NCBI GenBank assembly: GCA_024398135.1
Contig: CP073750.1
Location: forward strand, 1,488,001 to 1,552,000
DNA length: 64,000 bases
Source of the DNA: a bacterium SCSIO 12643
GTDB taxonomy: Bacteria > Bacteroidota > Bacteroidia > Flavobacteriales_G > Salibacteraceae
Direction: 5' to 3'
Part shown: in pieces, positions 7,661-63,284 of the stretch
How the letters are laid out: the number at the start of each line of letters is the position of its first letter
How positions within the stretch are numbered: the first letter of the stretch is position 1
Position numbers and translations under genes: made by a program
The notes under the pieces: model-generated
The model's database searches: none
Seen by the model: the letters and a program-made list of their open reading frames with translations, nothing else
Told to the model about the DNA's origin: nothing

Positions 7661-8378
7661 AGTTAAAATTTTGATCGTTGAGGATGAGATGGTTATCGCC
7701 ATGAATCTGGTTTCTATTCTGGAAGATTTAGGATACGATGTCCTTGATCCGGCTAATTCTTATGACGAAGCAGTGGATGCTTTGAAAGAGGAACAGCCCG
7801 ACATTGCATTATTAGATATTCAACTGGATGGGGATAAAGATGGAATTGATTTTGCCAGATATATCAATCAACATCAAGAAATTCCTTTTATTTATCTGAC
7901 CTCGAATGCAGACTCAAGAACATTAAATCAGGCTAAAGAAACTTCTCCATCTTCCTATCTGGTTAAACCGTTCAATCAGGATGATTTATTCACCTCGATT
8001 GAAATTGCCCTGCATAACTTTAGAGATAAACAAAACGGGGATAAAGAAGATAAAAATGTGGTAATCAAAGATTCCATCTTTGTGAAAAACAAAAACATGT
8101 TTTACAAAGTGAAATTTGATGATATTCTATTCGTAAAAAGCGACCATGTATACCTTGAAATTTATACTGCAAAAAACAAAAAACACCTGCTTCGAGGAAG
8201 TTTAACCGCATTTGCCGAACGACTTCCTAAAAACTTCTTCAGAACTCATCGAAGTTACTTAATCAATCTGGATTATCTGGAAGCTATTAACTCCATTCAC
8301 GTCATTATCAATGATATTCAGGTACCCATTGGAAAAACATACAGAAACGACCTCATGGAAAGTATCCAACTGGAATAG
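7653..8378 (+). CDS. LytTR family response regulator (pair 1)
   Basis: The protein has 241 residues. An N-terminal receiver domain (1-120) has acidic residues IVEDE at 8-12, the phosphoacceptor Asp55 in LLDIQ and a conserved Lys in LVKPF. The C-terminal LytTR DNA-binding domain (about 135-238) shows ILFVKSDHVYLEI and NFFRTHRSYLINLDYL. Its start overlaps the kinase stop by 8 bp, so the two are translationally coupled. It is paralogous to the regulator at 32095. LytTR proteins normally bind two direct half-sites one and two helical turns apart, and such a site lies 50 bp downstream (8429), in front of the next gene. That gene is its most likely target. Confidence 0.92.
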   Translation: MNKVKILIVEDEMVIAMNLVSILEDLGYDVLDPANSYDEAVDALKEEQPDIALLDIQLDGDKDGIDFARYINQHQEIPFIYLTSNADSRTLNQAKETSPSSYLVKPFNQDDLFTSIEIALHNFRDKQNGDKEDKNVVIKDSIFVKNKNMFYKVKFDDILFVKSDHVYLEIYTAKNKKHLLRGSLTAFAERLPKNFFRTHRSYLINLDYLEAINSIHVIINDIQVPIGKTYRNDLMESIQLE

Positions 8379-8428
8379 TTTCAATTATTTATCATTTTCT
8401 TAACCTGTAAATCCTCCTTTTGCTTTTC

Positions 8429-8459
8429 AGAACATAATTCATGTCGTTCATAACATTTG
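8429..8459 (+). promoter_or_regulatory. LytTR-type direct-repeat operator before the 9.8-kb adhesin gene
   Basis: AGAACAT at 8429 and ATAACAT at 8450 form a direct repeat of exactly 21 bp. The second half continues into TTTG (8456-8459), the end of a -7-like element. The coding start is 86 bp downstream and the LytTR regulator gene ends 50 bp upstream. The same arrangement recurs at 29992, 32862 and 41335. Confidence 0.6.
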
Positions 8460-8544
8460 TTATGGTACACCTTTATGCTCACCCTTCTTTTGCTCCAATT
8501 TAAAGAGTCAATCTCACCAAATTTCAAACAAAATTCAAAGGGGC

Positions 8545-11500
8545 ATGAAGAATTTTTTTACTGTTAAATCGTATTCATTTTTAGCCTTGATCGCCATTTT
8601 GGCCATCAGTCTTTTTTCAAATTCCACGGCATATACACAAACGTTAGCCAGTCCATATGTGGTTACCACATTTCCGGCCACTATATCCAGTATCAACACC
8701 GCTGGTGGAGAAACCGCAACGGGTATGCAAGGAGCTTGTTTTACACTACCATGCTGTTCTATTAATGTATTTAAAGTGACATTACCAGCAAATGGCGTGC
8801 TTCGTGTGGAGATGAGCAATTTCAATTTTTTAGCAGGAAGTATCATTGCTTATCGCTCACTCGTTGCAAATCCAACGAGCTATTCTGACCTGCAGTACAT
8901 TTCAGGCTCACCGGGAAACTTTTGCGGATTTAGAGATACCCTACAACTGGGTCGTGCATTTACAGATAACTGGGATAATATTCCATATGGCGGCACACCA
9001 ACTCAATACAGTGGGATTACATCGGTATATGACTTTAATAACCCATCATCTTTAGCAGGATATTATCCTGCGGGAGATTATTACCTCCTGGTATTTAATG
9101 AAAACCAGCAAACCTCTCAGGGACTTGGGGGATTAACAGATTTAACGTTTGAATTTGCTGAAGCATGTGCACCATTGACCGCACCAACTGCTCTAAATTT
9201 TGATACGTTAGAATACAATTCTGAATCAGATACCGTAAGTTTTTATGTAAAAAACCAAAGAACACTTGATGTAGACATCGATACTTCTAATATTAGTATC
9301 ACAGGTACAAACGCCTCTGAGTTTATCTTTTTACCAGTTTCCGATACTTCATTAGCCGTTGGCGACTCCTTGCAATTTCAAGTTGTTTTCACCCCTACAT
9401 CGGGAGGAGCCAGAACAGCATCCATTGAAATTCCTTTTTCTGATACCAGTTGTTCCACAACATCTGAAATATTATTAAATGGATATGGCGCACAACCTGA
9501 AATTGTCTTACTGGGAAATAGTATTAACATTACTAACAACGACCTGACACCATCTACTTCGAACTTCACCAATATGGGACCGGTAGTTACCAATACCGGG
9601 TCGGTCACCAAACTTTTTCAAATCACAAATACGGGTTCAGATACACTTACTTTGACTAACAACCCTATTGTTACTTTATCCGGAAATAGCCAATTTATCA
9701 TCAGTAGTCAACCTGCTTCTTCTGTTCTACCCGGTGATACTACCAGCTTCGAAATCACTTTCACTCCTACCGTTGATGGAACCGTAACCACAGATATATC
9801 CATTGCAAATAATGATCTGGACGAATCCACATTTACATTTAGAATCGAAGCAACCGGAGCTGAACGAAATGGCTTACACTTTGACGGCTCAAATGATTAT
9901 GTCAACATTAACACTGTAGCTGATGACATGGCTGGGATCAACACCTGGACCATTGAATCATGGATCAAAGCGGATCCTTCCCAAACTGGAAACGATCATA
10001 TCATGGCTGTGAACACCACAGGAACCGGCACCATTTTTCTTTTCAGATTAGATGATGGTTTTTTAGATTTCTATGATGGATCAACTGCCTTCGAAGTAGG
10101 TCCTGATTTAAGAGATGACACATGGCACCACGTTGCTGCGACCTATGACAATGGACAATTAAGCTTATTTATTGATGGTATTCCTCAAGGATCATTTAAT
10201 ACCGGAACAATCAGTTTTGCAAGCAACAATAGATGGAGTTTAGGACAGGAATATGATGGAAGTTCCAGAAGTGAGTATTTCAAAGGAGCACTAAACGAAG
10301 TTAGGATTTGGAAAACAGTTAAAACTACACAAGAAATCGCTGATGGTCGTTATTGTGAAATTCAAAATCCGGCTTCAAACACTAACCTAACAGGTTATTA
10401 TACTTTTAACCAGGGTGTATCCGGAGGATCAAATACCAGCATCAATGCAATCACTGATGCATCTGGTTATACAAACGATGGAACTCCAAACAACTTTGCA
10501 TTAACAGGCACCACTTCAAACTTTATTGCAGCCACTAATGTAGGGGTAAACTGTAACTCTGTACGTATTGCCTTATGTGATATTGATTCTTATTCTGTTC
10601 CTGGAGGAAATACCTACACATCATCTGGTGTATATATCGACACATTAACAAATAGTATGGGTGGTGATAGCATTGTATATACGGATCTATCTATTCGATA
10701 CTTCCAAATCACTCAGGATCATATTAATGATACGACCGTATGTGACACCATAAAAGAATTTGCGCAAACATCTTACACTCCATTCGCACGATTTGAAAAT
10801 ACAGACAATGACTGGGTAGAAATAAATGGTGCGGTAGATAGTCTGGTAAATACCAATCGATCCGTATTCTTATGGATGCGTGAAGCTGATCAAATTTCCG
10901 GGAGTGCGGACGTACTTGTTGGTATTAATACGAGCGGGACTGCAACTGTATGTAACTTAGGAATTGCTACTAATGAGCAGCTTTGGATTTATGATGGTGG
11001 AAATAACCGTTACTCAGGCGTTGTAGTTACCGATGGTCAATGGCACTTTGTAGGTTATACTTATGATGAAGCTTCCAATCAAACTCAGTTTTGGGTGGAT
11101 GGAGTCGCAGCCAATTCATTTACAAATGGTCAATCCATAAGTGCCACAAGCCGAATCTCATTAGGACAGGAATTTGACGGATCATCCCCAAGTAATTTCT
11201 ATGATGGTGATATGGCTGAAGTTACTATTTGGAATGAGGTTCTGGATGCTACGGATATTGCATTGCTAATGGAATCATCTGTTCAGACTTCTCATCCAAA
11301 ATACAATAAACTAAAGGCTTACTATCCAATGATCAGCGAATGTAACAACACTGATCTTACCTTAAAAGATTTTGGCCCGCACGCTTACAATGGAACCATG
11401 ACAGCAAATGATATCATTATCACCGATACATTAGCCAATCTTACAGACCACAATGCCGCACCTTTATATAGTAAATCATGGATTAGAAATGGCTCACAAA

Positions 11501-41370: not shown

Positions 41371-41458
41371 CTTCCAACAGGGTTCTGTTTAATCTTGTTT
41401 TAAAGTGTCAAAAAATCTCCTATCGGAATCATTTATATTTGATTTTAAATCTATGCTA

Positions 41459-44400
41459 ATGAAAACAAATCTACTCCGATTATTTCTATTCATTTCTTTT
41501 ATTGTTTTTGGAGCGCAACTGCACGCACAATGTCCTGTTCCCAACAATAACTTTCAAAAATTTGGTGAATTTGATTTAACGCCTTCTGGTGTTGGAGATA
41601 CAATGACCAGTACTACTACATGGGGAGGAGACTTCCATCGTGTTCAGGTTGATTCAGGAAAAACATATTGGATTTCTATGTGCGAAACACAATATTTTGC
41701 TGATAGTGCATACTATATTGGTGCTCCTGGGATTTACTATGATCCGATCATCACTCTTTACCATGATACGCAATCAGTTGCCGGAGCGTTCAATCAACTT
41801 TCTGGTCCTATTGTAGGATTTAATGATGATTATTGTGGCGTGCTACCACAAATCATTTATACTGCAACGTTTACGGGAAATTTAGCCGTTGCTGTTGATC
41901 CTGCAGTTGACTGTGACAGTTTTGCTATAGATAGCGCCATTGTTCAGGTAACTGAGATTTTAATTGGGATTTCAGGAAACATATCTGTAAATAATCATGT
42001 TTCTTGTAATGGACTTTCTGATGGCTCAGCTACCGTGGGTGTGACCGGAAATATTGGCCCGATATCCTATTTATGGTCTACTGGAGGCACAACAAATTCT
42101 ATTACCGGACTTACTGCTGGAACATATTCTGTTATCGTTTCTGATTCGGCCGGAAATGCGGATACCGTTTATACTGCTATAACAGAGCCCCCCACACTGG
42201 TCTCATCAGGCGTAGTTGACAATAATGTCTCCTGTAGCGGACTTTCGGATGGTGGTGCCACAGCATCCGCAACGGGCGGTACAGCAGCCTATACATACTT
42301 ATGGTCAAATGGTGCAACCACGGCCTCTACGACCGGGGCGGTCGCTGGAACTTACAGCGTAACCGTAACTGATGCTAATGGATGTACAGACTCTTCATCT
42401 GTCATTGTTACCGAACCCGCTAATTTAGTCTCCTCCGCTACGGTTAGCTCCAACGCAAGTTGTAATTCATGTTCAGATGGAGGAGCTACCGCTTCCGCGA
42501 CTGGTGGAACTACGACATATAATTATCAGTGGAATACGGGTGGAACTACAGCTTCAATCACAAATCTCCCTGTTGGAACGTATAGTGTTACGATCACCGA
42601 TGCCAATGGATGTACCGATTCTGCATCAACAGTGATCAATTCGGGTCCACAGTTATCAACTGTGGTAAACAACAATGTTTCATGTAATGGATTAACCGAT
42701 GGTGAAGCTATGGCTTCAGCTACAGGAGGCACCTCTCCATACACCTATGCATGGAGCAACGGAGCCACAAGTGCAACCATGTCAAGTGTTGCTGCTGGAA
42801 ATTATTCTGTTACTGTTACGGATAATGGAGGTTTAACTTCAACTTCATCTGTGACAATTACAGAACCTGCTGTATTAGTCGCTGCTACTGTAGTCGATTC
42901 TAATATTTCTTGTAATGGATTTAGTGACGGAGGAGCTACTGCTGCCGCAACAGGTGGTACAAGTGCTTATACTTATGCCTGGAATAATGGCGCGACTAAT
43001 GCTTCGATTACTGGTGTAGTTGCTACAACTTATTCTGTGACCATCACAGATGCCAATGGATGTACAGATTCTGCTTCTGTCACAATTACAGAGCCTGCAA
43101 CCATGGTTCCTGTAACACTTGTGAACAATCATGTTTCTTGTAATGGACTTTCGGATGGTGATGTGACCGCTTCCGGAACTTATGGAACCTCACCATATAC
43201 ATATGCCTGGTCAAATGGTACAACTGCAAACATTGCACATGATGTTCCTGCGGGAACCTACACCGTGACCATTACAGATGCCAATGGATGTTCGGACACA
43301 GCCTCGGCCGTGGTTACTGAACCAGCTGTTTTCATCTCTACTGCTGTTGTAGACTCGAATATTTCTTGTAATGGACTTACAGACGGTGGGGCGACAGCTT
43401 CTGCAACTGGTGGTACAACAGCTTACACTTATACATGGTCTAATGGAGCAACTATAGCTTCAATCACCGGTATCGCGGTTGGGACCTATTCTGTAACAGT
43501 AACCGATGCCAACGGGTGTACCGACTCCAGTTCTATAAATATTACTCAACCTACAACTTTAACTGCAGCATCCGTTGTAGATTCCAACGTAACTTGTAAC
43601 GGGTTCTCCAATGGTGGGTCTACAGTTTCAGCTACCGGAGGTACCACTCCTTATTCTTACAATTGGTCTAATACAGCTTCCACAGCTTCAATTACAGGAG
43701 TAGTGGCTAATACATATTCTGTAACAGTTACTGATGCCAATGGATGTACTTCGACAAGCTCAGCGACAATTACAGAACCTGCAGCTTTAGTAGCAGCTAG
43801 CGTGGCAGATTCAAATGCAACATGTAATGGCCTTTCTAATGGTGGCGCTACGGCTTCTGCTACAGGAGGTACTGGTGCATATTCTTATATGTGGAATAAC
43901 GCTGCTACTACAGCATCCATTACTGGTGTGATCGCAGGAACTTATTCTGTAACTGTTACAGATGCAAATGGGTGTACCGATTCTACTTCTGTTATCATCA
44001 CTGAACCTGCTGCTCTTGTCGCTAGTACAGTTGTCGATAATAATGTTTCTTGTAATGGTCTTGCAGACGGTGCGGCTACAGCTTCTGCAACTGGTGGTAC
44101 TGGGACTTATACGTATACCTGGTCAACCGGTGCTACTACAGCAACTGTAACTGGTCTCGCTGCTGGTACTTATTCTGTCACTATCGTTGATGCTAACGGT
44201 TGTTCTGCAAATACTTCAATTACCATTACAGAGCCTGCAGCTCTTGTCGTTACTACAACCGTAGTTTCTAATGTATCTTGTAATGGCGTTTGTGATGGAG
44301 AAATCTCTGCCAATATCACCGGTGGATCTGCTCCATATTCGTATATCTGGTCAAATGGTTCTGCGGTTAATCCAATCACTAATTTATGTGCAGGTACTTA

Positions 44401-45868
44401 TACCGTAACTGTAACAGATGCTAATGGTTGTACTGCAACAAGCACTGCTATCGTTACCGAACCAACTGTTTTAGTTGTGTCAACAACTTTAGATGCTAAC
44501 GTTTCTTGTAACGGTCTTGCAGACGGTGCGGCTACAGCTATCGCTACCGGTGGGACTCCTTCTCATACTTTCTTATGGAATACCGGAGCGGCTACTGCTT
44601 CTGTGACTGGCCTTGCTGCTGGTACTTATACCGTAACTGTAACTGACAATAATGGTTGTACGGCTACTGCTGCACTTGTCATCACTGAACCTGCGCTTTT
44701 AGTCGCTTCTACCGTGGTAGATTCTAACGTTACTTGTTTCGGTGGAGCTGATGGTGGTGTAACTGCTTCTGCTACGGGTGGTACTACTGCTTATGTTTAC
44801 GCATGGAACACTGGTGCGGCTACAGCTTCTATTACAGGACTCATGGCAGGGACGTATACCGTGACTATAACTGATGCAAATGGGTGTACAGATACCAGTT
44901 CTGCTATGGTCACTGAACCGCCTCTTCTATCTGTTGATTTAGGTAACGATACTTCTGTTTGTTTTGGTGGATCATTAACTCTTGATCCTGGAGCTGGATT
45001 TGCTTCTTACTTGTGGCAAGACAACTCTACGAATCAAACTTATAATGTGGATACCTCTACTCCTGGTGTGGCAGATTACTCTGTTACTGTTACAAATAGT
45101 AACGGTTGTATTGGATTCGATACCATTAATGTAACCGTATTCCAGGCTACTGGGGTCGCTATATCTGGTGCAAATGATCTTTGCGCTTATGAAATCGATA
45201 CTCTAATCGCTTCTTCCGGATTTGTATCTTACATCTGGAATACCAATGCAACGACTTCGCAAATCATTGTCGATGCAAATAGTTTGTCTCCTGGTTCACA
45301 GAATTATTCTGTAACTGCTACGGATAGCAATGGTTGTGTATCTGATGATGCTGTTTCATTCAATGTATTCAATCCTGTGGTGGTGGACTTAGGTCCGGAT
45401 ACTTCTATCGTTTGGGTTGATGGTGGAAATAACACTTATACATTGGATGCTGGTGCGGGTTTCAACTCTTACTTATGGAGTGATTTAACCACAAACCAAA
45501 CGCTTGATGTGACATTGACTAACATGGGAACTATTTCTGTTGTAGTCACTGATGGAAACGGATGTTACGGAGCGGATACTGTTTTTGTAGATTTCATATT
45601 AGATATTCCTACACTTGACAAAGCTTCAGTAAATATCTATCCGAATCCAGCTGCTGATTATTTAAACATTGACATGAAAGGTTTCAATGGTCAGGAAGTT
45701 CAGGTAATCATCACTGATATGGGTGGAAAACATGTGATCAACAACATCTTAAAAGTAAATGGAAATCAAACTTCTACTCTAGATGTTTCAAATCTTCCTA
45801 CGGGTACTTACTTCATCCAAATCCAGGCTGAAAACCAAAAAGTAGTAAAACATATTGTAATTAGATAG
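41459..45868 (+). CDS. Large SprB-repeat adhesin with T9SS type A sorting domain
   Basis: From the ATG at 41459 the protein has 1469 residues and a signal peptide ending at GAQLHAQ (about 24). Longer frames from GTG 41405 or ATG 41453 only add residues before the signal. Residues 25-175 are a beta-sandwich-like domain rich in Cys and Asp, similar in outline to bacterial pre-peptidase or lectin-like domains. Thirteen SprB-type repeats follow, then Ig-like domains and a type A sorting domain (VNIYPNPAADYL to the end). The final 2016 bp match the end of the adhesin at 22447 without gaps. The three type A adhesins thus differ mainly at the N-terminus, which probably sets their binding target. Confidence 0.92.
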   Translation: MKTNLLRLFLFISFIVFGAQLHAQCPVPNNNFQKFGEFDLTPSGVGDTMTSTTTWGGDFHRVQVDSGKTYWISMCETQYFADSAYYIGAPGIYYDPIITLYHDTQSVAGAFNQLSGPIVGFNDDYCGVLPQIIYTATFTGNLAVAVDPAVDCDSFAIDSAIVQVTEILIGISGNISVNNHVSCNGLSDGSATVGVTGNIGPISYLWSTGGTTNSITGLTAGTYSVIVSDSAGNADTVYTAITEPPTLVSSGVVDNNVSCSGLSDGGATASATGGTAAYTYLWSNGATTASTTGAVAGTYSVTVTDANGCTDSSSVIVTEPANLVSSATVSSNASCNSCSDGGATASATGGTTTYNYQWNTGGTTASITNLPVGTYSVTITDANGCTDSASTVINSGPQLSTVVNNNVSCNGLTDGEAMASATGGTSPYTYAWSNGATSATMSSVAAGNYSVTVTDNGGLTSTSSVTITEPAVLVAATVVDSNISCNGFSDGGATAAATGGTSAYTYAWNNGATNASITGVVATTYSVTITDANGCTDSASVTITEPATMVPVTLVNNHVSCNGLSDGDVTASGTYGTSPYTYAWSNGTTANIAHDVPAGTYTVTITDANGCSDTASAVVTEPAVFISTAVVDSNISCNGLTDGGATASATGGTTAYTYTWSNGATIASITGIAVGTYSVTVTDANGCTDSSSINITQPTTLTAASVVDSNVTCNGFSNGGSTVSATGGTTPYSYNWSNTASTASITGVVANTYSVTVTDANGCTSTSSATITEPAALVAASVADSNATCNGLSNGGATASATGGTGAYSYMWNNAATTASITGVIAGTYSVTVTDANGCTDSTSVIITEPAALVASTVVDNNVSCNGLADGAATASATGGTGTYTYTWSTGATTATVTGLAAGTYSVTIVDANGCSANTSITITEPAALVVTTTVVSNVSCNGVCDGEISANITGGSAPYSYIWSNGSAVNPITNLCAGTYTVTVTDANGCTATSTAIVTEPTVLVVSTTLDANVSCNGLADGAATAIATGGTPSHTFLWNTGAATASVTGLAAGTYTVTVTDNNGCTATAALVITEPALLVASTVVDSNVTCFGGADGGVTASATGGTTAYVYAWNTGAATASITGLMAGTYTVTITDANGCTDTSSAMVTEPPLLSVDLGNDTSVCFGGSLTLDPGAGFASYLWQDNSTNQTYNVDTSTPGVADYSVTVTNSNGCIGFDTINVTVFQATGVAISGANDLCAYEIDTLIASSGFVSYIWNTNATTSQIIVDANSLSPGSQNYSVTATDSNGCVSDDAVSFNVFNPVVVDLGPDTSIVWVDGGNNTYTLDAGAGFNSYLWSDLTTNQTLDVTLTNMGTISVVVTDGNGCYGADTVFVDFILDIPTLDKASVNIYPNPAADYLNIDMKGFNGQEVQVIITDMGGKHVINNILKVNGNQTSTLDVSNLPTGTYFIQIQAENQKVVKHIVIR
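43853..45868 (+). repeat. C-terminal paralogous block, copy 3
   Basis: The block aligns without gaps to 27916-29931 over 2016 bp, with scattered substitutions that are mostly silent. Its final 1190 bp are also shared with 36694-37883. Confidence 0.9.
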
Positions 45869-50972: not shown

Positions 50973-51121
50973 ACTTGTTGTTATTTATTTTATCCCTCAA
51001 ATTTAAGCATTGATTTCTTCCATCATGCGTTAAAAAAAATGAAATTGTAAATCCTGCGACAATTAATCTTGATCCTGACTTATACATTCGTAGCATAAAA
51101 AAACCATTAAATCATTTAGTT

Positions 51122-51484
51122 ATGAAAGAATCAAAGAACATTTTTAAGGCAGGTGCAGTTATATTAGGCGCTATTGTATTAAGCGCATTTGCTGTATTCA
51201 CCACCACTGAAATCCAGGCCGATGAGATTTCCGCACAAGCAAACCAATCAACTGAACTTCTAGCATTAAATACCGTTGATTTTGATGGTAAATGTGGCGA
51301 GGGAAAATGTGGAGAAGGTAAAAAATCTGAGAAAAAAGAAGAGAAAGCTAAAAAGTCTGAAAAGAAAGAAGGCAAATGTGGCGAGGGAAAATGCGGAGAA
51401 GGTAAGTGTGGCGAAGGAAAATCTGAGAAAAAAGAAGAAAAGAAAGAGCATAAATGTGGCGAAGGAAAATGTGGCGGCCAATAG
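51122..51484 (+). CDS. Cys-rich KCGEG-repeat exported peptide, HvfA-like candidate RiPP precursor
   Basis: The protein has 120 residues. An N-terminal signal or membrane segment (about 9-33) is followed by a short spacer with no Cys and then a low-complexity tail rich in Lys, Glu and Gly. All seven Cys (58, 63, 86, 91, 96, 112, 117) lie in KCG units, five of them in EGKCG. Repeated EGKCG after a leader is the hallmark of HvfA-type precursors, whose Cys are changed by a DUF692 (MNIO) enzyme with a partner protein to bind copper. No DUF692 or DUF2063 gene lies in this window, so modification would need enzymes elsewhere; otherwise the peptide may simply bind metal. It sits alone, with its own terminator, before a GMC dehydrogenase pair. 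Confidence 0.75.
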   Translation: MKESKNIFKAGAVILGAIVLSAFAVFTTTEIQADEISAQANQSTELLALNTVDFDGKCGEGKCGEGKKSEKKEEKAKKSEKKEGKCGEGKCGEGKCGEGKSEKKEEKKEHKCGEGKCGGQ

Positions 51485-51512
51485 TATAGTTTATAATCAC
51501 ACAGATAAAATG

Positions 51513-51534
51513 TACCCGAGCGAATGCTTGGGTA
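51513..51534 (+). terminator. Rho-independent terminator after the KCGEG peptide gene
   Basis: TACCCGAGC (51513-51521) pairs with GCTTGGGTA (51526-51534) with one G-U pair and a 4-nt loop. A run of T follows. Confidence 0.8.
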
Positions 51535-51593
51535 TTTTTTTGTCCGCATTTTCGAATAGATTAGAATACTTTTGATACTCTGAAGCAATCCAT

Positions 51594-52208
51594 ATGGGAA
51601 ACAAAAATGTAGCATCCGATTCGATCAAGATGTTTTCGGAAAAACCGCATCGTACCAAATTAAACAGACGTCACTTCCTTTTGGGAATGGCTGCTATTTC
51701 TGCTACCGCTATGATTCCCTCTGTAATTGCCTGCTCAGCTACTCCCATTCACGACATTCACAATCAACTTTCGGATAAGGATTTTAATACGCTGATTGCG
51801 GTACAAAATCATTTATTTCCAACCAGTAAAGACAGTCCGGGAGCACAAGAAATTCATGCTGCACAATATTATACCTGGGTCCTGACCGATCCATATCGCG
51901 ATCCCGATAGCATTAAACAAATGCGCAACGGAATTAGATGGACACAGGAAACCGCTACCGAAACCTATAATGAAAATTTCGTTTCGTTAAACTTTGAGGA
52001 AAAAGAAAATGTACTTCAAATTATGGCTCAGGAAGGTTGGGGAGAAAACTGGTTAAGTGTAGTTCTGACACTCATTTTTGAAGCTTTATTGAGTGATCCC
52101 ATTTATGGTTCAAATAATAATGAAGCCGGATGGAAGTGGTTAGAACATACCCCAGGAGTTCCCAGAGCAACCGTAGAAAACATGTATCACAAATTGATTA
52201 TATCGTAA
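51594..52208 (+). CDS. Gluconate 2-dehydrogenase subunit 3 family protein
   Basis: The protein has 204 residues. The N-terminus has a twin-arginine-like motif (NRRHFLLGMAA, Arg25-Arg26) and a hydrophobic stretch ending in VIAC (Cys47), so it is exported by Tat and possibly lipidated. The mature part is helical and shows LSDKDFNTLIAVQNHLFPTS, the typical start of the gluconate 2-dehydrogenase subunit 3 family. Such small subunits escort and stabilise a GMC flavoprotein. Here that partner follows directly: its ATG overlaps this stop by one base (TAATG). Confidence 0.88.
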   Translation: MGNKNVASDSIKMFSEKPHRTKLNRRHFLLGMAAISATAMIPSVIACSATPIHDIHNQLSDKDFNTLIAVQNHLFPTSKDSPGAQEIHAAQYYTWVLTDPYRDPDSIKQMRNGIRWTQETATETYNENFVSLNFEEKENVLQIMAQEGWGENWLSVVLTLIFEALLSDPIYGSNNNEAGWKWLEHTPGVPRATVENMYHKLIIS

Positions 52209-53887
52209 TGACAGTAGAAACAGAAGTTTGTATTGTAGGAAGTGGTGCCGGTGCTGGACCAATCGCATATACTTTATCTCGTGCGGGAAAAAAAGTGTTG
52301 GTATTAGAAAAAGGACCATGGTTTACTGAAAAAGATTTTAGTAAAGATGAAATTTCAGTGTGTAGAAGGAGTGTCTATACACCTAATTTGAAGGATGAAC
52401 GTCATGTTTTAGAAACCAAACATAAAGATCATTGGGATGCAAAATCCACGTATGACAGCGGTAGAGATTTTTGGAATGGTAGTCTGGTGGGAGGCTCCAG
52501 TAATTTAATGAGCGGATATTTTCATCGCTTAAAACCGAATGATTTCAACTTATTATCTACTTACGGCCCCATTGAAGGGGCTAATGTTGCAGACTGGCCT
52601 ATTGAATATGAAGATTTAGAGCCGTTTTATGCAATGACCGAAGAAGTCGTTGGGGTATCCGGGAAAGTGGTTCCTCATCAATTTCAAGAACCAAGATCTA
52701 CTCCTGATTTCCCTTATCCTAAACTGACCGAAAATTATATTGCGGAACTGATTGATCAGGCGTGTGATGAAATGGGGTATACATCTATTCCTACACCAAG
52801 AGCAATTGTCTCTAAACCAAAGGATGAGCGTAATCCTTGTTATTACAGCAATTATTGTGGAAGCTATCCATGTTCTTCAGGAGCTAAAGGTAGTGCGCGT
52901 GCAGCATTACTAGATCCTGCATTGAAAACTGGAAATTTGACGGTTACTCCATATGCTAAGGTTTTTAAACTCACCACCGATGAAAATGGCAAAGTGGTTT
53001 CTGCGCATTATTACGATGAGAACAAAAAAGAGGTGATTGTTAAGGCCGAAACTTTTGTAGTCGCGTGTCAGGCTATTGAAACCTCTAGATTGTTATTGAT
53101 GTCTCCCGGAGAGAAGCACCCAAATGGAATTGGTAACAACAACGGTCAACTGGGAAAAAACATCATTTTTTCTGCCGGTGGAGTCGGACACGGAGAGTTC
53201 CCCTATGATAAATTCTCTGATGAAGAAGTAACTAAATTGAAGTCTCGCGGCACCTTTGTCAATAGGTCGCTACAAGAATGGTATGAAATTGACGATGACG
53301 AATTTGGCGGTAAGGTCAAAGGTGGAACAGTAGATTTCCTATGGAAACATGCCAATCCAATTGCGCGTTCCATTCGATTAAAATGGGGCAGAGATGGTTT
53401 GATTTGGGGAGAAGCTCTAAAACAAAGAATGCATCACTACTTCACGCAAGAACGTCATTTGACATTTGAGATTTTTAACGACTGGTTACCTACGGATGAT
53501 TGCTTTGTGACATTAGATGATGAAGTCGTAGATAAATGGGGGGATCCCGTGGCTAAAGTCAGATTGGGATATCACGAGCACGACTTAAAAATTGGGGAAT
53601 ATATTGCTGAAAAAACAGAAAAAGTTTTAGAACAAATGGGCGCAGAACGTATTCGTTCCAGCGTAAGTGGTTCCGCTCCAGCCAATCTCGTGGCTGGAGG
53701 TTGTCGTTTTGGAGACGACCCTCAGACATCGGTACTGGATAAAAACTGCAAAGTTCACGATTGCGAAAATCTATATGTCACAGATGCGAGTTTTATGCCT
53801 ACAGGAGGAAGTGTTCCATATACCTTTACGATATATGCCAACTCATTTCGGGTAGCAGAGCATTTAAAACAAAAGTTGTCAAACTAG
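52208..53887 (+). CDS. GMC family FAD-dependent oxidoreductase
   Basis: From the ATG at 52208 the protein has 559 residues; an ATG at 52130 is in frame but lies inside the previous gene. The FAD-binding Rossmann motif GSGAGAGPIAYTLSRAGKKV starts near residue 11, with VLEKGPW after it. GGSSNLMSGYFHR and the C-terminal GMC motif (VLDKNC..HDCENLYVTDAS) follow. It should oxidise an alcohol or sugar in the periplasm, carried by the Tat signal of its small subunit since it has none itself. Where many relatives read HQAGTCRFG, this one reads LVAGGCRFG, so one active-site-region His is absent. The substrate is unknown. Confidence 0.9.
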   Translation: MTVETEVCIVGSGAGAGPIAYTLSRAGKKVLVLEKGPWFTEKDFSKDEISVCRRSVYTPNLKDERHVLETKHKDHWDAKSTYDSGRDFWNGSLVGGSSNLMSGYFHRLKPNDFNLLSTYGPIEGANVADWPIEYEDLEPFYAMTEEVVGVSGKVVPHQFQEPRSTPDFPYPKLTENYIAELIDQACDEMGYTSIPTPRAIVSKPKDERNPCYYSNYCGSYPCSSGAKGSARAALLDPALKTGNLTVTPYAKVFKLTTDENGKVVSAHYYDENKKEVIVKAETFVVACQAIETSRLLLMSPGEKHPNGIGNNNGQLGKNIIFSAGGVGHGEFPYDKFSDEEVTKLKSRGTFVNRSLQEWYEIDDDEFGGKVKGGTVDFLWKHANPIARSIRLKWGRDGLIWGEALKQRMHHYFTQERHLTFEIFNDWLPTDDCFVTLDDEVVDKWGDPVAKVRLGYHEHDLKIGEYIAEKTEKVLEQMGAERIRSSVSGSAPANLVAGGCRFGDDPQTSVLDKNCKVHDCENLYVTDASFMPTGGSVPYTFTIYANSFRVAEHLKQKLSN

Positions 53888-56520: not shown

Positions 56521-57861
56521 TCAAGGCAAACTGATCACATATCTAAAGCCAATGTTCACATTCGCACTTTCCTCCCCGATAAACCGATCTTTACCATCAA
56601 TTTGAATCTCATCCAGTCCGCTGGTCCAGCTTCCACCTCTGGCTCCGGGCTTACTTTTATCTGTTCCATAATACACCATTTCCGCTACATTTCCACTCAT
56701 ACAAAACAAACCATATCTATTTGGAGCATATGACCACACCGGAGCTGTAATCTCTATCCCATCCACATCCATAGTTTCTCCATCAGGCCTAAAATTAGCC
56801 AAATAACATCCTCTATCATTTTTTGCATACGGTCCTCCCCACGGATAAGCTGAACTTTCAATCCCCCCTTTAGCCGCATACACCCATTCCGCATTGGTTG
56901 GAATTCTCACATCATTAATCGGGTTTTTACCCTTCTTTTTCAATACACTGTTTACTTCTTCCGTTAGCCATTTACAATACAGTTCTGCACCTTCCCTACT
57001 AATATTGTTTACAGGATATCCACCATATGCTGGATGCGAAAAGTAATACTCCGCCATGGCAGCATATAGATGATCATTTACCTCTCTCCATTGGGATTGG
57101 TCTGGTTTCGCAATCAGAAAATCATCTTTTCTATTTAAAATCAAAAGGTCAAATAGAAAAGTGATGTAATCTAAATTGCTCACTTCGGTTTTTAGCATTG
57201 CAAATGAATTTACTGAAACCGAAGACCCATTGATTTTCATGGTTCCCTCAGGAATCTCTGAAAACCGTTTTTTATCCATTTTGATCACTTGTTTAATCAG
57301 TTTGGCTTTCCTTTTTTGATTCTCTTTAACTTCCTCCTCAGTCAGTGTTGGAAATCTATACGGTTCAACTGTAATTACTTCTTCCTTTTGCGGAATCTCA
57401 TCTATTTGAACAAAACGTTGCATCATTTCTTCTTCTTTTAACTCCACCTCAAAAGGCATTTCAAAGTTTTCCTCAGTAACTTCTTCAGGAATTAAAACCA
57501 GTTGATTTTCAGATCGAAGCTCTAACCTTTGTTCTTCTCTATTTGTAGAATCTCCAGATAGTATCCATTCTGAAGTATTTTCTTTTACCTCTACATTTTT
57601 ATGAATTGGTTTTTCGATGACAGAGGGATTAAAGAAATTCGAATAAATGAGAACTCCTATACCTATAGCACTAAATATTGTTGTCATGATAACGATAACT
57701 TTTGTCGAAAAAAGAGATGATTTGTTTCCCGAATGAAAATCAGGGGCATTTACAGCATCCATAAATGCGGATCGCGTTTCTTCAAAGTGCACCAGGGGCG
57801 CATCATTTTTAGCTTGATGAAATAAGCGTCTTAATTCATATTCTTCCTTATGACATTTCAT
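56521..57861 (-). CDS. Putative anti-sigma factor with C-terminal FGE/SUMF1-like domain
   Basis: The protein has 446 residues. A short charged cytoplasmic part (1-50) precedes one membrane helix (about 53-75) and a Glu/Lys-rich linker (to about 200), so the C-terminal half should be periplasmic. That half (about 205-446) is a formylglycine-generating-enzyme/SUMF1-like domain with SREGAELYCKWLTEE, RIPTNAEWVYAAKGG and GARGGSWTSG. The Cys pair that true enzymes carry after RGGS is missing, as in the T9SS gliding protein GldK, so it is probably a binding domain. The start overlaps the ECF sigma gene by 14 bp. The pair layout suggests that it restrains the sigma factor and senses an envelope signal; the role is inferred. 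Confidence 0.75.
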   Translation of the reverse strand: MKCHKEEYELRRLFHQAKNDAPLVHFEETRSAFMDAVNAPDFHSGNKSSLFSTKVIVIMTTIFSAIGIGVLIYSNFFNPSVIEKPIHKNVEVKENTSEWILSGDSTNREEQRLELRSENQLVLIPEEVTEENFEMPFEVELKEEEMMQRFVQIDEIPQKEEVITVEPYRFPTLTEEEVKENQKRKAKLIKQVIKMDKKRFSEIPEGTMKINGSSVSVNSFAMLKTEVSNLDYITFLFDLLILNRKDDFLIAKPDQSQWREVNDHLYAAMAEYYFSHPAYGGYPVNNISREGAELYCKWLTEEVNSVLKKKGKNPINDVRIPTNAEWVYAAKGGIESSAYPWGGPYAKNDRGCYLANFRPDGETMDVDGIEITAPVWSYAPNRYGLFCMSGNVAEMVYYGTDKSKPGARGGSWTSGLDEIQIDGKDRFIGEESANVNIGFRYVISLP

Positions 57862-58381
57862 ATTTCACCCCCTTTATTTTATTCGAGTTAGAATCGGACA
57901 AGACTTCCTTCAACCTTGTGCGTCCGCGTTTTAAACGTTGTTTCACAGCAGATTCAGAGACTTGTTGTATTTGCACAATCTCCTTTATCGAAAACCCTGA
58001 AATTTCAAACAAAATGAGACACTCTCGCTGTTCATCAGGAAGTCTACTCAAAGCTTGATACAATATGGCTACTTCTGTTTTCCTCGAAGTATCTGCATCT
58101 TGATCCTCCACATCAAAATGCGGATGTTGCGGCCATGACTCCTCTCTTTTTTTCTTATGATTATTAGATAAAATGCGAATACTTACCCCAATTAAATATG
58201 ACAAAAAAGAATCTTTGGATTTAAGCGATTTCAATTTCTGAAACGCTACCAATAACGTCTCATTCATCAAATCCTGATGATCCATATTTCCATAAACTCT
58301 CGCCCTGCAGAAGCGTTCGAACCTATCATGAATCGGTTCATATAGTTTCAAGAAATATTCTTGTTTCTTTTTGTGCGTCAT
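57848..58381 (-). CDS. ECF-type RNA polymerase sigma factor
   Basis: The protein has 177 residues. Region 2 includes YGNMDHQDLMNETLLVAFQK and LSYLIGVSIRILSNNHKKKR, and region 4 includes LSRLPDEQRECLILFEISGF with the helix-turn-helix SIKEIVQIQQVSESAVKQRL. There is no region 1.1 or 3, as usual for sigma-70 family group 4. The gene is first in an operon with the membrane protein that overlaps its 3' end. It probably directs a small envelope-related regulon and its own promoter; the target promoters were not identified here. Confidence 0.93.
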   Translation of the reverse strand: MTHKKKQEYFLKLYEPIHDRFERFCRARVYGNMDHQDLMNETLLVAFQKLKSLKSKDSFLSYLIGVSIRILSNNHKKKREESWPQHPHFDVEDQDADTSRKTEVAILYQALSRLPDEQRECLILFEISGFSIKEIVQIQQVSESAVKQRLKRGRTRLKEVLSDSNSNKIKGVKYEMS

Positions 58382-62861: not shown

Positions 62862-63284
62862 ATGTCAAGATTAATTACCAAACTCAACAAGTATGGAAAC
62901 TCGTTTAGAGTTTTCGAGCCTAACATCGCCAGAGTTCTTCTAGGCGTTTTTGTTCTCTACAAGGGACTCACATTCTTACAACATACCAACATTTTAATGG
63001 AGATTTTAAATCCGTCCGATGCGGGCCTTACTGAGATTTTTATTGTGCATTATGTTCAAATGGGACATATTGTTGGAGGACTTTTCTTAATTTTTGGATT
63101 ACTGACCAGACTTGCAGCAATCACACAAATTCCGATCTTAATCGGAGCTGTTGTGGTAAATGCTCAAATCGGAGATTTAAACCAACTGGTTATTTCTTCA
63201 GTAGTCCTGTTATTTTTGGTTTTCTTCACCATTATTGGTTCAGGGAAAGTCTCTATGGATTACAGCCTAAAAATGGAAATGTAA
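62862..63284 (+). CDS. DoxX-like four-helix membrane protein
   Basis: The protein has 140 residues and four hydrophobic helices (about 22-42, 64-85, 90-107, 110-130). The first reads IARVLLGVFVLYKGLTFLQH and the second region GHIVGGLFLIFGLLTRLAAI, typical of the DoxX/DoxX-like family. Members sit in the inner membrane; some work with redox or copper-peptide systems, but a general function is not set. The gene is alone, convergent with a cytochrome c gene 7 bp away. The family call is good and the role open. Confidence 0.8.
   Translation: MSRLITKLNKYGNSFRVFEPNIARVLLGVFVLYKGLTFLQHTNILMEILNPSDAGLTEIFIVHYVQMGHIVGGLFLIFGLLTRLAAITQIPILIGAVVVNAQIGDLNQLVISSVVLLFLVFFTIIGSGKVSMDYSLKMEM

Follow-up and report, generated by a model that had tools for sequence, protein, structure and literature searches.

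A probable hvfA descendant lacking its modifying enzymes adjoins a GMC oxidoreductase module in bacterium SCSIO 12643

The genome of bacterium SCSIO 12643 encodes a small KCG-repeat protein, whose gene is probably a descendant of hvfA that has outlived its enzymes. On balance, with a somewhat better than even chance of being correct, we regard this protein as an unmodified, thiol-based metal peptide, probably for Cu(I), which was recruited to a neighbouring GMC dehydrogenase module. The reading is built on features computed here, namely the sequence itself, the absence of MNIO and DUF2063 proteins, the loss of a motif, positional orthology, purifying selection and a recurrent association with a pair of genes encoding a Gluconate_2-dh3 protein (Glu3) and a GMC oxidoreductase.

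Results

Features of the KCG-repeat protein

The analysed window comprises 64,000 nucleotides of contig CP073750.1 (GCA_024398135.1, positions 1,488,001-1,552,000; genome G000), and two congeners, G001 and G002, were used for comparison. On its forward strand, an open reading frame with an ATG start (51122..51484) encodes a protein of 120 amino acids with orthologues in both congeners. The protein combines a Sec-type signal without a lipobox cysteine, which predicts its export by the Sec pathway, with an eroded leader region and a KCGEG tail containing seven cysteines. This Lys/Glu/Gly/Cys tail (51290..51481, forward strand; residues 57-120) is organized in groups of two, three and two KCG(EG) units with K/E-rich linkers in between, and five of the seven units read EGKCG. 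In AlphaFold2 predictions based on three sequences, the pLDDT of the KCG protein is 47, which points to disorder, and it stays below 50 over residues 55-120. The model NF050137 (KCGExKCG_twice) matches the protein with 36.9 bits at a cut-off of 19.5 (E 2e-9), which argues against a chance repeat. Reading frame and model match thus confirm a sequence-only reading of the same DNA, which had described a signal-like N-terminus and, in a Lys/Glu/Gly-rich tail, seven KCG units that read EGKCG in five cases, and the protein shares with HvfA and other oxazolin precursors the N-terminal Sec signal and the repeated EGKCG core. The HvfA equivalog model NF050188 yields 42.2 bits, far below its cut-off of 95, and about 24 bits for the KCG proteins of the congeners.

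Downstream of the gene, a terminator scan and a comparison of gap sequences locate an intrinsic terminator (51512..51545, forward strand), and a similar hairpin with T-run is found at the equivalent place in G001 and G002. The presence of a terminator between the KCG and Glu3 genes in all three congeners argues against a single operon. Promoters of Bacteroidota carry a -7 element with the consensus TAnnTTTG. A possible element of this type close to the consensus, TACATTCG, precedes the KCG gene (51083..51090, forward strand) as judged from the upstream regions of the three congeners, and the three gap sequences contain a second candidate, TACTTTTG (51567..51574, forward strand), from which Glu3-GMC could possibly be transcribed separately from the KCG gene.

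Absence of modifying enzymes and loss of the post-signal motif

The sequence-only reading had found no DUF692 or DUF2063 gene in the window and had proposed a genome-wide search for MNIO and partner genes. The first statement is correct and can be extended to the entire genome, which is assembled in a single contig of 4.118 Mb with an estimated completeness of 97.9%: PF05114 (MNIO) has no match in G000 at E<=0.001, relaxing the threshold to E<=10 yields none in G000 and its two congeners, and PF09836 (the DUF2063/PME1 partner) finds nothing over its cut-off in the same three genomes. As positive controls, the PF05114 search identified MNIOs in 29 of 149 relatives, and PF09836 scored over its cut-off in all eight MNIO-containing relatives searched. 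MNIOs are encoded in 20 genomes of the wider family, and those of its MNIO loci that were read have the genes for precursor, MNIO and partner side by side. Since the hvf-type MNIOs of relatives score above 300 bits, it is unlikely that such an enzyme was overlooked.

A feature of MNIO-linked precursors has also disappeared. In 28 of 31 such proteins from Bacteroidota, an LGSGAELR-like motif is detected by pattern between signal and core, a number that rises to 30 if two plain variants (LGNGAQLR and MGTAGEVR) are counted, whereas all 12 KCG proteins of genomes without MNIO, including the window protein, lack it (Fisher p 3e-8, for a motif chosen post hoc and with relatedness ignored). The motif is thus eroded in the lineage of the KCG protein. 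Of the two options that had been offered for the peptide, its modification by a distant enzyme is contradicted by these results, as MNIO and DUF2063 are missing from a one-contig genome and two congeners and the motif is gone, and we have rejected an MNIO encoded elsewhere in the genome. The same evidence favours the other option, that the KCG peptide is probably used unmodified.

The DoxX-like gene noted about 11 kb away does exist (62862-63284), but its proposed link to hvf loci finds no support, since the HvfX model NF050144 scores 13.8 bits at a cut-off of 80 and the protein matches the generic DoxX family PF07681; we thus rejected it as HvfX.

As an observation on annotation, NF050137 assigns the name 'oxazolone/thioamide-modified RiPP metallophore' to KCG proteins of MNIO-less genomes, where it is unsupported, and at E<=0.001 the model missed the precursors in 7 of the 20 MNIO-bearing genomes of the family.

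Positional orthology with hvfA

Two sets of neighbours that had escaped the sequence-only reading are informative about the locus, a DUF2147 gene upstream and the Glu3 and GMC genes downstream. The DUF2147 protein (PF09917; 50541..50972, reverse strand) is encoded divergently from the KCG gene and shares 59-62% of its residues with DUF2147 proteins encoded beside hvfA in the loci (L010/L070 and L044) of genomes G014 (genus g13) and G019 (genus g11). In these two genomes, DUF2147 is divergent from a complete hvfA-hvfB-hvfC set encoding precursor, MNIO and DUF2063 protein, and in G000, G001 and G002 it is divergent from KCG, Glu3 and GMC, with hvfBC gone. In its simplest reading, this shared synteny implies positional orthology of the KCG gene with hvfA and the loss of hvfBC.

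A second line of evidence was obtained with a hidden Markov model of signal and leader built from 19 MNIO-linked precursors. The KCG proteins of the three congeners score 15.8-19.3 bits, compared to 7.7 or less for 113 secreted control proteins and about 0 for KCG proteins of the lipoprotein type. When the residues that follow the signal were shuffled in the window protein, its score was still reached in 82 of 300 cases, and the likeness thus resides mainly in the signal peptide. Common ancestry of KCG and MNIO-linked hvfA genes is suggested by synteny and this score, the protein being too short for a tree. In light of this probable ancestry, which is also backed by the core motif, the earlier assignment as HvfA-type precursor is in part upheld; it fails with respect to a distant modifying enzyme, for which no gene was found in the genome.

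An alternative ancestral hvf site has the order LOG-fam5-fam4-fam3. G000 and G001 contain LOG-fam5-fam4 followed by a different gene and no hvf genes, which is consistent with their absence without being decisive. In a scan with the KCG protein as single query, all matches were loci of Pseudomonadota, with an MNIO adjoining the precursor in five of seven, and sampling across the phylum added family f67 alone, which bears an MNIO. In MNIO-bearing relatives (L063, L069, L075, L140 and L147), hvfA often follows a gene for an ECF-type sigma factor and one for a small protein with Cys, about 77-117 amino acids long, neither of which is found at the KCG locus of the window.

Selection on the KCG gene

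The orthologues in G001 and G002 reside in conserved synteny. Between the three congeners, the proteins are 56-71% identical with a dN of 0.20-0.36 at saturated dS; their C-terminal HKCGEGKCGG is identical, and the number of repeats and the linkers differ. The dN values despite saturated dS show that the tail is under purifying selection and that the gene is not decaying. Elsewhere, the MNIO-less genome G640 contains a second, hvfA-like KCG gene (L163, 7413-7763, minus strand), which is broken by frameshifts, possibly through sequencing error, and whose remaining frames show KCG repeats.

The neighbouring Glu3-GMC pair

The gene following the terminator (51594..52208, forward strand) encodes a Gluconate_2-dh3 'hitchhiker' subunit (PF13618, E 3e-16) with a TAT_signal match and a lipobox-like cysteine. 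Its stop overlaps with the start of the gene of an FAD-dependent GMC oxidoreductase (PF00732/PF05199; 52208..53887, forward strand), and judged from these sequences the pair would be exported by the Tat pathway. A profile of 6a2u matches the GMC protein with an E-value of 8e-62, and the best Foldseek matches of its model are fructose and glucose dehydrogenases (8jej to 8grj). With a pLDDT of 73, this model is weak around a cluster of cysteines, whose geometry was therefore left unused. In sequence, Cys208, Cys214 and Cys219 (numbered from base 52217), which are invariant in 11 homologues, align with Cys212, Cys218 and Cys222 of an FAD glucose dehydrogenase, where they ligate a 3Fe-4S cluster at the surface (PMC6719666), and an equivalent surface cluster is thus predicted for the window protein. 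The catalytic histidine of fructose dehydrogenase (FDH) is not conserved, as the position of its His1147, fixed through the H1147A entry 8k6j, is occupied by Leu491 in all 11 aligned homologues. The subfamily instead contains an invariant Cys496 and His514. No gene for a multiheme cytochrome c is contained in the Glu3-GMC neighbourhoods listed; at the locus of a distant GMC homologue (L174, G145), a neighbour contains seven CxxCH motifs.

Recurrent association of Cx4C-repeat proteins with Glu3-GMC

In families f111, f35 and f21, small lipoproteins with a Cx4C-repeat tail directly adjoin a Glu3-GMC pair. Their genes are convergent with GMC in f111 (G574 and G677), divergent from Glu3 in f35 (G640) and in f21 (G590) arranged as in the window, with a tail (ACEEGACEAGACEGG) that retains the Cx4C spacing without being KCG. 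The adjacency is thus found in four families and three orientations. In a sample of 395 genomes of the class, no more than 10 encode a close GMC homologue (at least 45% identity); these comprise all five sampled MNIO-less genomes with a KCG protein (G000, G057, G574, G640 and G677) and none of the 15 genomes of this sample that contain both KCG protein and MNIO. Similarly, neither Glu3 nor GMC was found near MNIO-linked precursors in the loci read. These data support an association of the KCG peptide with Glu3-GMC, which was recognized post hoc and encompasses about five lineages. It may be convergent, since the window protein is no lipoprotein, unlike its GMC-linked counterparts in the other families. 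We found no paper in which Gluconate_2-dh3, GMC oxidoreductase and Bacteroidetes are brought together.

Other proteins in genus and window

The genus encodes a second KCG protein (L060 near 8800-9200 in G000, L061 3763-4095 in G001 and L062 3336-3653 in G002), a lipoprotein (LTSCGGG) with an acidic linker and a KCGEG tail, which in all three species adjoins an FAD-linked oxidase/4Fe-4S protein of about 970 amino acids. At L059, G000 contains two neighbouring genes for Cys/Lys-rich secreted proteins, one (8220-8756) with 21 cysteines (in L002) ending in KCGEGKCG repeats and the other (8955-9257) matching no NCBIfam model. Within the window, an ECF sigma factor gene overlaps at its end with a second gene (56521-58381 for the two), whose product has a membrane segment at the N-terminus and an FGE-sulfatase domain (PF03781) at the C-terminus, and a secreted protein of 1487 amino acids (41405-45868) contains a Por secretion tail in addition to 13 SprB repeats.

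Discussion

From the features described above, we infer the export, unmodified state, metal binding and functional role of the KCG peptide. In the proposed course of events, the genus would have lost the MNIO (hvfB) and the DUF2063 partner (hvfC) of an oxazolin/captophorin precursor and retained the hvfA-type gene. The peptide would be exported by Sec with cysteines that stay free at C-x4-C spacing, and Tat would export the GMC flavo-dehydrogenase with its predicted surface 3Fe-4S cluster, riding on the Gluconate_2-dh3 hitchhiker. Selection would maintain the KCG gene because its product now works beside Glu3-GMC, where the unmodified thiolates of the tail would most probably coordinate Cu(I) or some other soft metal in the periplasm. 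Since the cluster of the GMC protein is predicted at its surface and the module contains no cytochrome partner, the peptide might shield the exposed Fe-S cluster and the flavin against copper or, alternatively, serve as metal or redox partner where related dehydrogenases use a cytochrome subunit. A stricter version, in which the unmodified Cx4C peptide would complete an FAD/3Fe-4S dehydrogenase without cytochrome as its third component, with a metal-thiolate tail, either secreted or anchored by a lipid, that would accept electrons from the surface cluster or protect it, is speculative and in our opinion unlikely. If true, a former RiPP precursor would now serve an oxidoreductase as an ordinary protein partner.

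Several observations count against a partnership with GMC. The KCG gene has its own terminator and possibly its own promoter, KCG and Glu3-GMC genes are located on different contigs in G057, and family f53 contains GMC without Glu3 or KCG. The first two of these, together with two further KCG proteins encoded elsewhere in the genome and away from GMC, would be expected of an hvfA-derived peptide that stays unmodified and buffers metal in the periplasm on its own, next to which GMC would lie by coincidence. We consider this a tenable, if somewhat improbable, alternative, as coincidence accounts poorly for an adjacency in several families and orientations and for the distribution of GMC among sampled KCG genomes with and without MNIO.

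The remaining explanations concern the fate of the precursor itself. Modification in trans, by an MNIO too divergent for detection, by one encoded on an element that the assembly lacks or by another class of enzyme, appears very unlikely, as neither an MNIO match at the most permissive threshold nor the DUF2063 partner was found in any of the three congeners, of which G000 is a single contig, as related MNIOs score high, and as the post-signal motif is lost; it would nevertheless fit the retained core motif and signal-peptide resemblance, the slightly incomplete genome (by estimate) and the finding that in HvfA and bufferins the leader function lies in the Sec signal (PMC13419390). We give the least credence to a functionless hvfA relic that decays after the loss of hvfBC. 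Such decay might be expected from the lack of a detectable KCG gene in 12 of the family's 15 MNIO-less genomes, from the frameshifted hvfA-like gene of G640 and from the variable repeat numbers and linkers among congeners, yet the gene is intact in three diverged species, with an identical C-terminus and 56-71% protein identity in the face of saturated dS, and its terminator and synteny are conserved.

An unmodified peptide in association with Glu3-GMC, as we favour it, would have implications beyond this genus. EGKCG proteins are automatically named as modified RiPP metallophores, and the NF050137 name is applied here to a protein whose modifying enzymes are absent. The lineage separates a metal-binding sequence from its chemistry and thereby makes it testable whether an EGKCG tail is useful without thiooxazole, with the exported FAD/3Fe-4S GMC enzyme as concrete candidate partner.

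Precursors with EGKCG motifs, their 5-thiooxazole chemistry and copper binding have been described previously (PMC13097082, PMC13419390, PMC12538549). A 5-thiooxazole lowers the mass by 4 Da for each Cys, and our searches identified no enzyme that would introduce it into the window protein. The window protein resembles the oxazolin/captophorin precursors (HvfA, FonA, MmrA and NedA; Buf_EGKCG) in its Sec signal, the EGKCG repeats recognized by NF050137, the HvfA-like signal peptide and a DUF2147 neighbour shared with two complete hvfABC loci. It differs in belonging to a genus without MNIO and DUF2063, in the missing LGSGAELR-like motif, in a score far under the HvfA cut-off and in its Glu3-GMC neighbours. 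Lipidated oxazolins are known from NedA of Neisseria dentiae, whose modification is carried out by the cognate NedBC (PMC12636315); the GMC-linked KCG lipoproteins of f111 and f35 similarly carry EGKCG repeats, but their genomes encode no MNIO. Genomes with precursor and without MNIO, as found here, are counted in Table 3 of PMC12452194 (67 of 2583 EGKCG-bearing genomes), which allows that some of the precursors may be unmodified; the text consulted gives no neighbourhoods, motif loss or GMC association, and these unexplained genomes may include the same situation. What appears to be new is an entire genus that keeps the peptide after enzyme loss, together with the lost motif, a tail under selection and the repeated association with Glu3-GMC. 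The module itself shares with the FAD dehydrogenases capable of direct electron transfer (DET), such as the Burkholderia FAD-GDH and the Gluconobacter fructose dehydrogenase, a GMC protein with three cysteines at the 3Fe-4S positions and a hitchhiker gene, and it is distinguished from them by the lack of a cytochrome c gene, by a leucine at the position of FDH His1147 and by the adjoining secreted Cx4C-repeat protein.
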